Under the pieces are notes generated by a model. The model made no database searches, was not told the DNA's origin, and worked only from the letters and a program-made list of their open reading frames with translations. The position numbers and the translations under genes were made by a program. From Candidatus Latescibacterota bacterium (lineage in GTDB: Bacteria > Latescibacterota > UBA2968 > GCA-2709665), in NCBI GenBank assembly GCA_012270675.1, contig JAAXHW010000031.1, forward strand, positions 1 to 32,874: a stretch of 32,874 nucleotides of DNA, read 5' to 3'. How positions within the stretch are numbered: the first letter of the stretch is position 1; each line of letters opens with the position of its first letter. Below, piece by piece: positions 3,789 to 31,085 of this stretch.

Positions 3789-4331
3789 ATGAAACGCCGC
3801 ATGCCATGGATTATGGGGATGCTAACGGCCCTGCTGCTCTGGACAGGTCCAGCAGGGGCAGCCACCGCTCCCGACTTCAACCTGCGGGATACAGGAGGCA
3901 AACGGGTCAACCTGAAGGCCCTTCTCAAAAAAGGCCCTGTCCTCCTGGACTTCTGGGCCACCTGGTGCAAACCCTGCCTGAAGGCCATGCCCAAACTGGA
4001 AGAAATCCACAACACATACAAAGACCGGGGGCTGACCGTCCTGGGCGTCAACGAAGACGGCCCTCGCAGCCAGACCAAAGTGAAGCCCTTTCTCAGGGCG
4101 CGCAAGATTTCATTTCCATCCGTCTTCGACCCCGATGGCGGCGTCATGCGCCGGATGCAGGTCGGGCTGCTGCCCGTAACCTTTCTGATCGCACAGGATG
4201 GCGAAATCGTGCTTCGGCAGGCCGGGTATGACCCGGACCATGAAAAGCCCCTGATAGACGCCATTGAATCCTTGCTTCCAGGGGCCGACGCCGGCACAGA
4301 GCCCACCGGAGATGCCCGTGCGGAAAAGTAG
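3789..4331 (+). CDS. TlpA-like exported thioredoxin-fold protein
   Basis: 180 residues with an AAGGAG ribosome-binding site just upstream. Residues 1-24 are a signal peptide (M-K-R-R, a hydrophobic core, then A-G-A-A). The mature part is a TlpA/ResA-type thioredoxin domain: A-P-D-F-N-L near 27-32, active site W59-C60-K61-P62-C63, and the cis-proline segment L-L-P-V-T-F-L-I. Such proteins are thiol-disulfide oxidoreductases in the periplasm or anchored to the envelope. The acidic tail has no obvious domain. The next gene overlaps its 3' end by 14 bases, indicating translational coupling to the DUF6029-like barrel, and the selenoprotein follows. The context suggests this Cys-type thioredoxin is a redox partner for one of them; the partner is inferred. 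Confidence 0.9.
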   Translation: MKRRMPWIMGMLTALLLWTGPAGAATAPDFNLRDTGGKRVNLKALLKKGPVLLDFWATWCKPCLKAMPKLEEIHNTYKDRGLTVLGVNEDGPRSQTKVKPFLRARKISFPSVFDPDGGVMRRMQVGLLPVTFLIAQDGEIVLRQAGYDPDHEKPLIDAIESLLPGADAGTEPTGDARAEK

Positions 4332-5829
4332 CCTGGTGGTCCTGGTCCTGCTCCTGTCCTCCGCCCCGGCAGGCGCTCAGATCACCGTTTCAAGCCTGAC
4401 GGAAATGCAGCGGGGGCGTATCCCCGGAGCCGATTCCACGGCCCTTTCCACGCTCTATGAGCAATTCAACGTCGATTACGCAAACAACGATCTGCAGGCG
4501 GGGCTGCGGGCCGAGGTATTCAACGCCTGGGGGACCGACCGTGGGATGGTCCATCTCTCCCAGAAATTCATCCGCTGGACGCATGGATCAACCTATCTGG
4601 TCGCCGGGAACTACTACGCCATCCTGGGCCGGGGGCTGACCCTCCGCGCATTTGAACTGCCCGGAGTGGTCCTGGAAAGCCAGGTCTTCCGGCGCCGGTA
4701 CACCCCCTCGCGCGACATTGAGGGCAGCCTGGCCTCCTGGACCGGCGACCGTACCGAAATCAAGGCCCTGATCGGGCGCCCTGTCAAAAGCGACATCCCC
4801 CCCGGCGTCCCGAACGTGGACCGTCGGCAGGACTGGGTTGCGGGAGGCGAAGTCTCCCTTCGGCCCGTCTCCCCCCTGAAAGCAGGCGCAACCTTCGTCC
4901 GCCTCCTTCCCAGGAACGCAGACGAAAGCCTCAGCGCAGACAAAAGCCAGGCCTGGTCGGGCCTTGCCGAGGTTGACTTCACCTCCCTGCTCGGACTCGG
5001 TGAAACCTACGGCAGCTTCTACGGCGAGTACGCCAAACGCGCAGACGATGAAGAGGGGCACGGGCTTTATCTCTCGGGAAATGCTGGAGGGTCCAGACTC
5101 GGCATCAGCCTCGAATACAAAGATTACGACAACTTCGTCCTGGAGGTCAACGACCCGCCCTCCCTGGTCCGGGAACACACGTCCGTCATTCTCAACCGCT
5201 CCACCCACGTCCTCCTGCCCGCCACCGAGCGGGGGTACCAGATCGAGGCCACCTACACGCTGCCCGCTCTGGCCACCCTTACAGCCAACCTCAGCTATGC
5301 GCGCAACGACCTCACCGAAGACCTGATAAGAGTTTTCAAAGAGCGCTACCTGGGGGTCGACTTTGAAAAATTTCTGCCGAGCTTTTCGGCAACCGTATTC
5401 TACGACTGGGGACAAGACGAGCTGAAAGGGATCTCGAAGCACCGCACGGGCGGCCTCTTGCTGGAAGGCGCGGCCTGGCCCAACCACACCCTGGGGCTCG
5501 ACTTCCAGGTCCAGCGCGCCACCCGCCCACCGTCGTTTACGGACATCTACACCGCCCTGTCCTGGCAGCATCCGCTTGGGGTCAGCATCGCCCTGATCCT
5601 GGACCGGACGTCGGACCCTCTGGAAGTCGACGATCCGACGACCCTGACCCAAATCGAGACCGGCGCGCGCACCTGGTGGGCGGCGACCCTCAGCGCACGG
5701 TTCGCCGGGCGGTATGAGGCCCTCCTCTTCGCGGGCCGGCGGCGTGGCGGAACGGCCTGCACCTCCGGGACCTGCTACCAGGTCTTGCCCTTTAAAGGCC
5801 TGGAAATACGGTTTACCACCCATTTCTGA
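4318..5829 (+). CDS. DUF6029-like outer-membrane beta-barrel protein
   Basis: I chose GTG 4318: GGAG at 4308-4311 gives six bases of spacing, whereas the in-frame ATG at 4312 directly abuts it. ATG 4264 would lie far inside the previous gene and precede the signal peptide. The first 20 or so residues form a signal peptide ending in A-G-A-Q. The body has many alternating amphipathic strands and the conserved-looking stretch around A-G-N-Y-Y-A-I-L-G-R-G-L then L-R-A-F-E-L-P-G-V, which I recognise from DUF6029 proteins of Bacteroidota and relatives. It ends in Phe (T-T-H-F), as expected for a BAM-inserted barrel. The function of the family is unknown. Its position between a TlpA-like thioredoxin and an exported selenoprotein links it to envelope redox chemistry. 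Confidence 0.75.
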   Translation: MRKSSLVVLVLLLSSAPAGAQITVSSLTEMQRGRIPGADSTALSTLYEQFNVDYANNDLQAGLRAEVFNAWGTDRGMVHLSQKFIRWTHGSTYLVAGNYYAILGRGLTLRAFELPGVVLESQVFRRRYTPSRDIEGSLASWTGDRTEIKALIGRPVKSDIPPGVPNVDRRQDWVAGGEVSLRPVSPLKAGATFVRLLPRNADESLSADKSQAWSGLAEVDFTSLLGLGETYGSFYGEYAKRADDEEGHGLYLSGNAGGSRLGISLEYKDYDNFVLEVNDPPSLVREHTSVILNRSTHVLLPATERGYQIEATYTLPALATLTANLSYARNDLTEDLIRVFKERYLGVDFEKFLPSFSATVFYDWGQDELKGISKHRTGGLLLEGAAWPNHTLGLDFQVQRATRPPSFTDIYTALSWQHPLGVSIALILDRTSDPLEVDDPTTLTQIETGARTWWAATLSARFAGRYEALLFAGRRRGGTACTSGTCYQVLPFKGLEIRFTTHF

Positions 5830-5866
5830 CGCGGAAATCCACCAACAACAGAAAGGAGCGTAGACA

Positions 5867-7201
5867 ATGTATAACCTGCGGAAATATCTTTTGGGCGCCA
5901 TACTCTTATGCTTCACCGCTGCCGGCAGCCTGGAGGCCGCCGCCCGCGTGGGCGAATCGGTGCCCAACTTTTCACTGCGGGACCTCAGCGGACAGACGCA
6001 CACCCCGGCAACCTACCAGGGAAAAGTCCTCGTCCTCTACTTTCTGGGCTATGCCTGAACGCTCTGCTACCGGACGGGTCCGTCCGTAGAGAAAGAGATA
6101 TGGCAGAACTTCAAAGACGACAACCTCCAGGTGCTGGGCCTGGACGTGTGGAACGGTAGCCAGGCCCAGCTTACGTCCTTCAGGACCAGAACCGAGGTCA
6201 CCTTTCCCCTGTTGCTGAGGGCCTCGGCCGGGACCAACTTTGGCGTCAGCTCCTCCGGAGCAATCGATGTGATGATGGTCATCGATCAAGAGGGCATCGT
6301 CCGGCGCATCAGCGGCGCCAGAACCTCTGCAGTCTCGGCTACGGCGATGCTGATCGATGAACTGCTCAACCCCCCCGTGCCGATGATCGGCGCCACACCA
6401 GACTCGCTCAACTTTGGGCCGGAACTCCAGCCGGGAGAGTCCAGAACCCTCCCGGTCACAGTGCAAAACACCGGCACGGATACCCTCAATCTCACGAACA
6501 TCCAGTCAGACATACCCGAACTCACCGTAAGTGACTCCACGTTCTTCATTCTCCCGGGCGAAAACAGGGAGATCCAGGTCACCCTGACGCCCACGCAGGA
6601 CGGCACCCTGTCGGGCATCCTCAACCTCCTCAGCAACGACCCGCAACAGGACACCCTCCGGGTCGTGATCGAACCGGTCACCGTCATAACGCTTCCCTCC
6701 GCAATCGCCCTGGCCGCAGAACGGCTTGAATTCGACAATATCGAAGTGGGAATCCGTGTTGCCCGCACCCTCACGATCCGCAACGAAGGCCGGGGATTTT
6801 TAAAAATCACCGACGTAACATCCGACCTGCCGGGTCTGTCGGTCTCCCAGAAGGCCTTCGAGGTGCCCCCGGGAGAATCGTACGATCTGACCATTACCGT
6901 CACACCCACCGCAGAAGGCGCCTTTTCAGGCAGCCTGACCATCGTAAGCAACGACCCCGACCGGAACACGATCGTCCTTCCCCTGTCGGGATCGGCGGTG
7001 ATGTTCCGGCCCGATGCCCGGGCCGACTTCAACGGGAGCGGGCGGATCGATTTCGCCGATTTTGTTATCTTCGCGCAGGGCTTTGGCCGGCAGACCGGGC
7101 AGCCGGGCTTTGATGAGCGGCTCGACCTGAACGACAACGGGAGAATCGACTTCCCTGACTTCGTCATCTTTGCCCGGTCCTTCGGCACCATTGTGAACTG
7201 A
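5867..7201 (+). CDS. Exported selenoprotein: thioredoxin domain with UxxC, two Ig-like domains, dockerin-like tail (TGA read through at 6056)
   Basis: 444 residues if TGA 6056-6058 encodes selenocysteine 64; AAAGGAG precedes the ATG. A signal peptide covers about 1-25. Residues 27-165 are an AhpC/TlpA-type thioredoxin fold: V-P-N-F-S-L-R-D-L-S-G, strand V-L-V-L-Y-F-L-G-Y-A, then U64-T-L-C67, a G-P-S-V-E-x-E-I-W helix and strand V-L-G-L-D-V-W-N-G. The 72 bases after the TGA contain no stop and code for exactly the expected thioredoxin helix, so a pseudogene is unlikely. Residues about 178-270 and 285-378 are two related Ig-like (choice-of-anchor-D/ASH type) domains. Residues 386-444 carry two calcium-loop motifs (D387-x-N389-x-S391-x3-D395 and D420-x-N422-x-N424-x3-D428), as in dockerins. 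It lies 37 bases after the beta-barrel gene. Selenocysteine at the attacking position would give a highly reactive selenol. Automated calling would split it into 5867-6058 and 6131-7201. Confidence 0.88.
6056..6091 (+). promoter_or_regulatory. UGA codon plus bacterial SECIS-like hairpin
   Basis: After UGA 6056-6058 comes a hairpin: CUAC 6067-6070 pairs with GUAG 6086-6089, one C (6070 or 6071) is bulged on the 5' side, GGACG 6072-6076 pairs with CGUCC 6081-6085, and the loop is GGUC 6077-6080. Counting U6056 as 1, loop G6078 and U6079 are positions 23 and 24. In E. coli fdhF the SelB-contacting G23 and U24 occupy the same positions in a similar GGUC-containing loop, with a bulged U at 17. Here the bulge falls at 15 or 16. 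Two further pairs (6062-6063 with 6090-6091) could extend the base. Confidence 0.82.
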
Positions 7202-29277: not shown

Positions 29278-29667
29278 CTACTTGACCAGCAGCAACTGCC
29301 GCGTCTGCACCCCACCGGGGTAAATCAGACGCGCCAGATAGACCCCCGATGCGACTGCGACGCCCCGCTCGTCGCGACCCTCCCAAACCACCTGGTACCG
29401 GCCCGCAGGCTGCACCTCGTGCACCAGCGTGCGCACCACCTGCCCCAGGGTGTTGTAGATCCTCAGCCGCACCGCACCGGACGCCCCCAGGCGATAGGTG
29501 ATCTGAGTGCTGGGGTTGAAAGGATTGGGCACATTGGAAACCAGACCGTCGGTCGCCGTCTCTGTCCCGTCTGTCTCCAGTGGTTCGACACTGACCACCC
29601 GCATACCGCCCCCGATCTCAGTTCCAGGACCTGGCGTTGATTGCGATTGAGGGGGATGCTGTGCCAC
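29278..29667 (-). CDS. T9SS C-terminal sorting domain, 3' part of a frameshifted gene
   Basis: The useful part is downstream of the frameshift near 29613: V-S-N-V-P-N-P-F-N-P-S-T-Q-I-T-Y, L-R-I-Y-N-T-L-G-Q-V-V, G-R-Y-Q-V-V-W-E-G and A-S-G-V-Y-L-A-R-L, ending in L-L-L-V-K. This is the type A sorting domain that sends proteins through the type IX secretion system, found only in FCB-group bacteria. Cut off from its gene it would have no signal peptide and no cargo. Adding one G to the run of five at 29609-29613 joins it in frame to the upstream ORF, giving 602 residues. It is probably part of that protein. Confidence 0.85.
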   Translation of the reverse strand: MAQHPPQSQSTPGPGTEIGGGMRVVSVEPLETDGTETATDGLVSNVPNPFNPSTQITYRLGASGAVRLRIYNTLGQVVRTLVHEVQPAGRYQVVWEGRDERGVAVASGVYLARLIYPGGVQTRQLLLVK

Positions 29668-31085
29668 TGGCCCACGGTCTCGCCGTCGGCGTTGCGCGCG
29701 CGGGCCTGATAGTAACCGCTCACCCCGTCCGCGCTGGAGATGGTCAGGGACGCCTGGCCGTTGGCATCGGTGATCGCGCTCCAGGCGTAGTCGGGCTGGC
29801 GGCCGGAGATGGCGCGAGAAAACGCGACGGTCAACCCTTCGACGGCGTCGCCTGAGACTGTGGCTTCTACTTCTGTACGGGGATCAGTCGGGGCAACCTC
29901 GGGTGCTCGCCCATAAAACCCTGACCCAATGATGAAGTTGTACGGGACTACCCTTCCACCTAACTCAGTTTGCGTTTTGAACTCGCGTGCGTATCCCACC
30001 TTGGGGATATCGGCGCTATCGGTGTCGTCATTGGGATCGTCAAAGTAATACTCCACGAAACCGCCTTCCGGATCACTTTTCGCCGCTTCGATGACCTGCG
30101 GTAGTATGAGTTTTCCAGTAACTGCGTCTCGGACGGTCGGTATCAGAGGTCGAAGCTCGTATCTGTTCGGAAACGCAGCGTGTATTTGGATTACGTTGCT
30201 GGTAGTATCCAGGACATAGAGGTACACGGAACCGTGTCTCCAGGGCCCGTCCGGATCCCGAAGTGCGATCCTGGCTATCCCACCCGGGAAATTGCCGGTT
30301 TTCCGAAGTTCGAGACAGTACTCCCCTGCTGCCGTGACGAAGGCTTTCAGGGTTTCTCGATCTACCACGTCCCTGGCGGTAATGGCCGGGGTAATGTGAT
30401 CGATCTCTTCTTCAATTACGTGAGTTTCATTGAGCTCGAAACCGGCTATCATCACAAGCGGGCCTCTAAAAAAGTCCGACAAATATGTGGCGGCATAACC
30501 GGAAGCACCCGGTATGCCAGGTCGCAGGTCTGGTACAGGGGTGGTCGCATCGAATGCGGCATCCGGTTCTTGCGACAATATATTAACCACTTCGGCATTA
30601 GCCTGGGCGGCAATTGCAGAATCGGGAGATGCCAGGTTGGCCAGAACGGTTAAGGGTACTCCCAGGGCAGAAAGGATCTCTGCATAAATAAGGGGGTCGA
30701 GTCGCCTGCTCGACAATGCCATGTCCTTCGCGTGGATCAAAACACTGCCATTGGCCCTCATAACCACGAGGTAGGTGGAACCGGAATGCCAATAGCTCCC
30801 CTCTTGCCGGAAGAGACATCCATAGTATACCACTTGTCCCAGATTCTCAGCCGTCTCGAGCTGCATGACAAATTGTTCCCTCGCGGCCAGCGTGAAGTCC
30901 TGCAGGGTAGCGCTGCCGTCTTCCACCTGTTGAGCCGTCACACTCGGTTCCGCAGGGATTGTCACGCCGGGAGGGGGTGGACAATCTGCCAGGGCGGGAG
31001 GCGCATTGGAAAAGGCGCCAGCCAGCACGAGTAGTCCGACAACGGGAATCATGTATGCCGAAGCGAGCAATGTTCGAGCTTTCAT
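29463..31085 (-). CDS. Exported protein with two Cache-like domains, cargo of type IX secretion (frameshifted)
   Basis: Starts at the ATG at 31085 with AGGAG upstream. Residues 1-34 are a signal peptide. Two related segments (about 55-220 and 245-385) look like Cache sensor domains: G-S-T-Y-L-V-V-M-R-A-N-G-S-V-L-I-H-A-K-D-M and G-S-V-Y-L-Y-V-L-D-T-T-S-N-V-I-Q-I-H-A, the second closing with I-I-G-S-G-F-Y-G. An Ig-like segment follows (A-T-V-S-G-D-A-V-E-G-L-T-V-A-F-S, D-A-N-G-Q-A-S-L-T-I). After residue 490 or so the frame runs into a nonsense tail to 29463; the true continuation is in the next frame. Cache domains are normally parts of membrane receptors, so a secreted version without a transducer is unusual. 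The ligand is unknown. Confidence 0.75.
   Translation of the reverse strand: MKARTLLASAYMIPVVGLLVLAGAFSNAPPALADCPPPPGVTIPAEPSVTAQQVEDGSATLQDFTLAAREQFVMQLETAENLGQVVYYGCLFRQEGSYWHSGSTYLVVMRANGSVLIHAKDMALSSRRLDPLIYAEILSALGVPLTVLANLASPDSAIAAQANAEVVNILSQEPDAAFDATTPVPDLRPGIPGASGYAATYLSDFFRGPLVMIAGFELNETHVIEEEIDHITPAITARDVVDRETLKAFVTAAGEYCLELRKTGNFPGGIARIALRDPDGPWRHGSVYLYVLDTTSNVIQIHAAFPNRYELRPLIPTVRDAVTGKLILPQVIEAAKSDPEGGFVEYYFDDPNDDTDSADIPKVGYAREFKTQTELGGRVVPYNFIIGSGFYGRAPEVAPTDPRTEVEATVSGDAVEGLTVAFSRAISGRQPDYAWSAITDANGQASLTISSADGVSGYYQARARNADGETVGQWHSIPLNRNQRQVLELRSGAVCGWSVSNHWRQTGQRRRPTVWFPMCPILSTPALRSPIAWGRPVRCG

Follow-up and report, generated by a model that had tools for sequence, protein, structure and literature searches.

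Prx-like thiol:disulfide oxidoreductases (PF00578, UxxC/UxxU) are listed in reviews as a predicted selenoprotein family (PMC13188914, PMC9312934), and both this kind of protein and its chemistry are already known. By naming, a protein encoded in the window analyzed here, a stretch of 32,874 nucleotides from a Candidatus Latescibacterota bacterium, falls into that family. It shares with the described members the PF00578 domain, a UxxC motif with Sec in the first position and a bSECIS-directed UGA, and was likened to published representatives (e.g. WP_010940744.1) by domain and motif. Unlike them, the Sec redoxin is fused to ASH/choice-of-anchor-D domains and, in the family, to dockerin- or T9SS-like tails, and it lies in a tlpA-DUF6029 cluster. 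The closest solved folds were those of the ResA/TlpA/DsbE (CxxC) oxidoreductases, whose Cys sits in the Sec column; the Sec redoxin differs from these by carrying Sec for Cys, by lacking the cis-proline and by scoring far below the cut-off of the ResA model NF002854 (47.1 versus 170 bits). The TUGYCR motif thioredoxin fold (seleno)protein NF053656 is also a UxxC redoxin model and was weakly matched by 3 of 32 family members, but its motif differs and the member checked reached 28.6 bits against a cut-off of 100. Sec-peroxiredoxins (TxxU) from the same bacterial class likewise combine PF00578 with Sec; their Sec is peroxidatic, whereas Sec occupies the thioredoxin nucleophile position here. A further weak match, of the second ASH domain, was to the OS_HP2/DUF1573 (seleno)proteins NF041425 (50.9 versus a cut-off of 100). 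OS_HP2/DUF1573 proteins have Sec in a U-x-C type motif (PMC2398784, PMC13188914), whereas the ASH domains of the window's protein hold neither Cys nor Sec.

The sequence-only reading had claimed a selenoprotein gene that runs from ATG 5867 to a stop at 7201 and is interrupted by a single TGA at the first position of a CxxC motif. All of these coordinates were correct on re-reading, and the position of the TGA within the motif was confirmed in the translation. The final stop is a TGA at 7199-7201, and the TGA at 6056-6058 is the only internal one; with the latter read as Sec, the frame yields 444 aa with the motif U64-T-L-C67. As also claimed, the 72 bases from 6059 to 6130 contain no stop, and the ORF listing restarts at GTG 6131 (356 aa). 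Approximately 13 stops would be expected per 444 codons at the local base composition, and the probability of one or none is ~2e-5. GC3 was unbroken across the TGA, amounting to 0.75 before it, 0.79 between it and the GTG, and 0.78 thereafter. The gene encodes a selenocysteine protein, Sec itself being predicted from sequence, and ordinary gene finders would cut such genes in two. The features of the locus are compiled in Table 1.

Table 1. Features of the Sec redoxin gene and its conserved neighbors, numbered by position in the window
Feature	Position	Strand	Evidence
Selenoprotein gene, probably exported UxxC redoxin, 444 aa including one Sec	5867..7201	+	Sequence, translation, homologues
Shine-Dalgarno-like AAAGGAG, 8 nt 5' of ATG 5867	5852..5858	+	Read directly
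Probable signal peptide (MYNLRKYLLGAILLCFTAAGSLEAA)	5867..5941	+	Read from translation
Thioredoxin-fold/AhpC-TSA domain, residues 28-147	5948..6307	+	PF00578, 53.7 bits versus cut-off 26; AlphaFold pLDDT 90.7
Sec codon UGA (U64)	6056..6058	+	Column shared by every homologue read
Predicted bSECIS hairpin, upper stem CGGACG/CGUCCG, apical loop GGUC at 6077-6080, 18 nt past UGA	6062..6091	+	Folding, covariation
Resolving Cys67 codon of U-T-L-C, the mature protein's only Cys	6065..6067	+	Translation, alignment
Two ASH/choice-of-anchor-D Ig-like domains, residues ~171-376	6377..6994	+	PF15780, 77.3 bits, two stretches; NF012200, 100.1 versus cut-off 45
Dockerin/EF-hand-like paired Ca-binding repeats (DFNGSGRIDFADF ... 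DLNDNGRIDFPDF)	7022..7174	+	PF13499 and PF00404, both just under cut-off
TlpA-like thioredoxin, CKPC motif, conserved neighbor, candidate reductant	3789..4331	+	PF00578, 86.4 bits; synteny
DUF6029 protein, putative outer-membrane beta-barrel, conserved neighbor; true start probably past 4264	4264..5829	+	PF19494, 59.7 bits versus cut-off 27; synteny

Relatives were sought with the redoxin domain in 64 genomes of the phylum, and the strong matches mainly contained exactly one TGA each. One TGA in the same alignment column was shared by 38 distinct contexts, which came from at least 33 genomes of the class, counting that of the window; this conservation is the decisive evidence against chance. 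The column was retained at roughly 30-52% protein identity among homologues. A partner Cys followed three residues after U, in GYAUTLC of the window as in GHNUPTC, GYSUPAC, GWSUGSC, GYNUGTC and others of the relatives, and the 72 bases between the TGA and GTG 6131 were conserved as protein. Several genomes harbored two or more copies. Tandem Sec redoxin duplicates ~1 kb apart were observed in several relatives (L027/L028, L031/L080, and L032).

The expectation that relatives have Cys at position 64 was borne out, with one refinement. Cys of a CxxC motif was found in the Sec column of all four solved relatives aligned (2ls5, 3kcm, 3hdc, and 4nmu), and the TlpA from the second gene upstream likewise has Cys there. 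The closest relatives, however, hold Sec, and the sole close Cys copy (L033/L085:9945-11034, 44% identical) is decayed, with an in-frame TAA and a frameshift. A second decayed copy from the same genome (L086:8231-9067) contained both TGA and TAA, and in-frame TAA was confined to these two copies of the family. The TAA of L033 was rejected as a further recoded codon, since this copy retains Cys in the Sec column, has its TAA at another site and is frameshifted downstream. No intact Cys orthologue of the Sec redoxin was seen among the homologues found within the phylum, and a scan of genome contigs matched only a distant Cys redoxin of Pedobacter.

All of selA, selB, selC (the tRNA-Sec gene) and selD were present in the genome of the window, an assembly of 4.0 Mb in 318 contigs that is 94% complete with 7% estimated contamination. 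On one contig (C60), selA (486 bits) adjoins selB (368 bits versus a cut-off of 242), and on another (C287) tRNA-Sec with anticodon tca (72 bits versus a cut-off of 47) lies beside selD. This selD (L015, G000:C287:21201-22124) is a selenoprotein gene itself, with one in-frame TGA (...SCGGUASK...) and the UxxK motif of Sec-type selenophosphate synthetases (PMC13188914). In a fragmented assembly the contigs with selA, selB, selD and tRNA-Sec could in principle be foreign, but relatives across the class also have SelB. It scored above cut-off in all 33 genomes with a Sec redoxin except two in which selB was split at contig ends. Among 17 genomes outside the class, none had a UGA redoxin match and one had SelB above cut-off.

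Published rules for a bSECIS element specify a loop of 3-9 nt, a stem of 4-16 bp, G in the first two loop positions, a spacing of 16-37 nt, and a minimum free energy of -7.5 kcal/mol or lower (PMC13188914). The window's hairpin agrees with every one of them: it folds at -14.0 kcal/mol and has a stem of 5-6 bp, a GGUC loop and a spacing of 18 nt. In 38/38 contexts, a hairpin could be drawn whose apical loop lies 15-19 nt past the UGA. Synonymous recodings were used for comparison: over the 38 contexts, which are sequences related to each other, the focal hairpin averaged -9.4 kcal/mol versus -4.8 for recoded versions, and in the window the values were -11.7 and -3.7 kcal/mol. Cys-type redoxin controls from the same loci averaged -4.5 kcal/mol versus -2.3 for synonymous versions (mean z -1.0, versus -1.7 for the Sec contexts), so that the controls also folded slightly better than expected. 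Because the Cys control is not at zero, this test is supporting rather than conclusive. Folding of the whole 42-nt segment was weakly separated from synonymous versions; the focal hairpin test separated better. One shared stem register for all 38 hairpins could not be established. As registers differ slightly between subfamilies, stem pairs were counted per subfamily. Two pairs with compensatory changes (G-C to A-U and G-C to C-G) were found in the window's subfamily, and in another nearly all synonymous positions of the stem were unchanged. A scan of the region against Rfam returned chance matches only; as no Rfam model catches this type of SECIS, the missing match carries no weight.

PF00578 was matched by 32/32 family members. 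Computed with 32 family sequences, the AlphaFold model (pLDDT 90.7) shows a thioredoxin fold in which Sec (domain residue 39) directly precedes helix 1. The helix and strand that had been predicted past the TGA agree with this model (helix, domain residues 40-57; strand, 62-68). The nearest solved structures were a Bacteroides protein (2ls5, TM 0.87) and ResA (TM 0.73-0.76). Sec64 and Cys67 are the sole Cys/Sec residues of the mature protein, which holds across the family, and the motif reads GxxUxxC. In the alignment, the cis-proline before strand beta4 is missing from the family, which has other residues at the Pro site of the window's TlpA. Consequently, ordinary thioredoxin-like substrate handling is not assured. 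No NCBIfam model reached its cut-off on the redoxin domain of the window's protein or of the eight relatives checked with cut-offs.

The C-terminal repeats of the window's protein scored 25 bits with PF13499 (cut-off 30) and 22.3 with PF00404 (cut-off 22.9), and the repeats were kept in relatives. Other family members have a PNPFN/FlgD-like T9SS-type tail in place of the dockerin tail, which would point to secretion or surface anchoring. A tail of the PNPFNPST...T9SS type was also observed in a dCache-domain protein elsewhere in the window (29278-31085, minus strand), where it continues in another reading frame (ORF 29278-29667); this suggests a frameshift.

The gene order alpha/beta-hydrolase, conserved 495-aa protein, Gfo/Idh, tlpA (CKPC), DUF6029, Sec redoxin and tilS was shared by four genomes of the same family. 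Of these genes, tlpA, DUF6029 and Sec redoxin recurred together in other families, with DUF6029 sometimes divergent, and the linkage to tlpA-DUF6029 was absent in one genus. For DUF6029, an outer-membrane beta-barrel that may serve in polysaccharide export has been proposed (PMC9603273). The 495-aa protein (positions 888-2375) belongs to no Pfam family and is ~40% identical and syntenic in the four family relatives.

Could the TGA have an origin other than recoding? An error of sequencing or assembly, or a nonsense mutation that recently turned a Cys redoxin gene into a pseudogene, finds a parallel in the decayed Cys copy of a relative (L033/L085). It is nevertheless very improbable and was already refuted by conservation: at least 33 genomes contributed 38 contexts with this TGA, in which an intact frame flanks it on either side and the hairpin is conserved. 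Just as little credit can be given to a pair of independent genes without recoding, in which a short exported peptide would stop at 6058 and a fragment of the redoxin would start from GTG 6131. The standard ORF listing does break the frame in this way, but the break would split the thioredoxin fold just before helix 1 and lose Cys67, and the intervening bases are conserved as protein. Negligible in our view is the proposal that the genome generally reads TGA as another amino acid, e.g. Trp. No support for it was found; TGA terminates 12 of the 27 gene calls in the window, that of the redoxin included, so that there is no global reassignment in this genome, and this stop usage already refutes the idea. 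Furthermore, selA, selB, tilS and ftsH are devoid of in-frame TGA, and solved homologues have Cys rather than Trp at the site. Neither a reassigned TGA nor a lack of selB and selC combined with a lack of Cys homologues was thus encountered, and the selenoprotein reading was upheld.

A selenoprotein could also act as an envelope peroxidase of the peroxiredoxin or GPx-like type, with Sec attacking hydroperoxides. Sec is common in peroxidases, the PF00578 and Redoxin models match, and structures of Bcp, AhpE and GPx are among those similar to the structural model. We consider this function unlikely, though less so than any of the readings without Sec, given that Sec takes the place of the thioredoxin nucleophile and has a partner of the CxxC type, that the TxxC/TxxU peroxidatic motif is absent and that the best structural and sequence relatives are of the ResA/TlpA type. 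Separate TxxU peroxiredoxins moreover exist in relatives (L065 and L067; G019:C61 and G037:C1:6466757-6467026). They constitute a second Sec family with one in-frame TGA (...TGGUTAEG...), present in several genomes of the order; in the window's own genome, no second TGA-bearing PF00578 match was found.

The Sec redoxin, decoded with SelB, tRNA-Sec and the hairpin, is thus very probably an exported protein, most likely a thiol-disulfide oxidoreductase of the envelope or surface that is recharged by TlpA. Drawing on the computed recoding signal, machinery, conservation, fold, domains and cluster, we infer the following course. The UGA at 6056-6058 would be decoded as Sec by SelB and tRNA-Sec, guided by the hairpin just downstream, and the product would be exported, as the probable signal peptide suggests. 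The redox pair would consist of U64, which caps helix 1 at its N-terminus, and C67, three residues on. Since the mature protein has no other Cys or Sec, the catalytic cycle most likely alternates between the selenol/thiol state and a selenenylsulfide joining U64 to C67. The Cys-type TlpA of the same cluster may recharge the Sec redoxin in the envelope, where the ASH domains and the dockerin- or T9SS-type tails would place it.

New relative to the described UxxC proteins are the combination of domains in a probably exported protein, a Sec that is fixed throughout the class, tandem gene duplication in several relatives, the conserved cluster and the lack of an NCBIfam model at cut-off. No paper describing the family or its architecture was found in the literature searched, which covers a minority of subscription papers. 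The finding adds a class-wide selenoprotein family whose members are split by gene callers and recognized by no NCBIfam model above cut-off, and it suggests that poorly studied bacteria employ selenium chemistry at their cell envelope. With tlpA and DUF6029 as conserved neighbors, an electron donor and a link to the outer membrane become testable. More tentatively, and with considerable doubt, the whole class might use a surface or envelope selenium redox module composed of a Cys TlpA, the outer-membrane DUF6029 barrel and a Sec redoxin with adhesion-like tails. If true, this would amount to a selenenylsulfide relay outside the cytoplasm that is coupled to an outer-membrane channel; no such role of a bacterial selenoprotein was met in the literature found.
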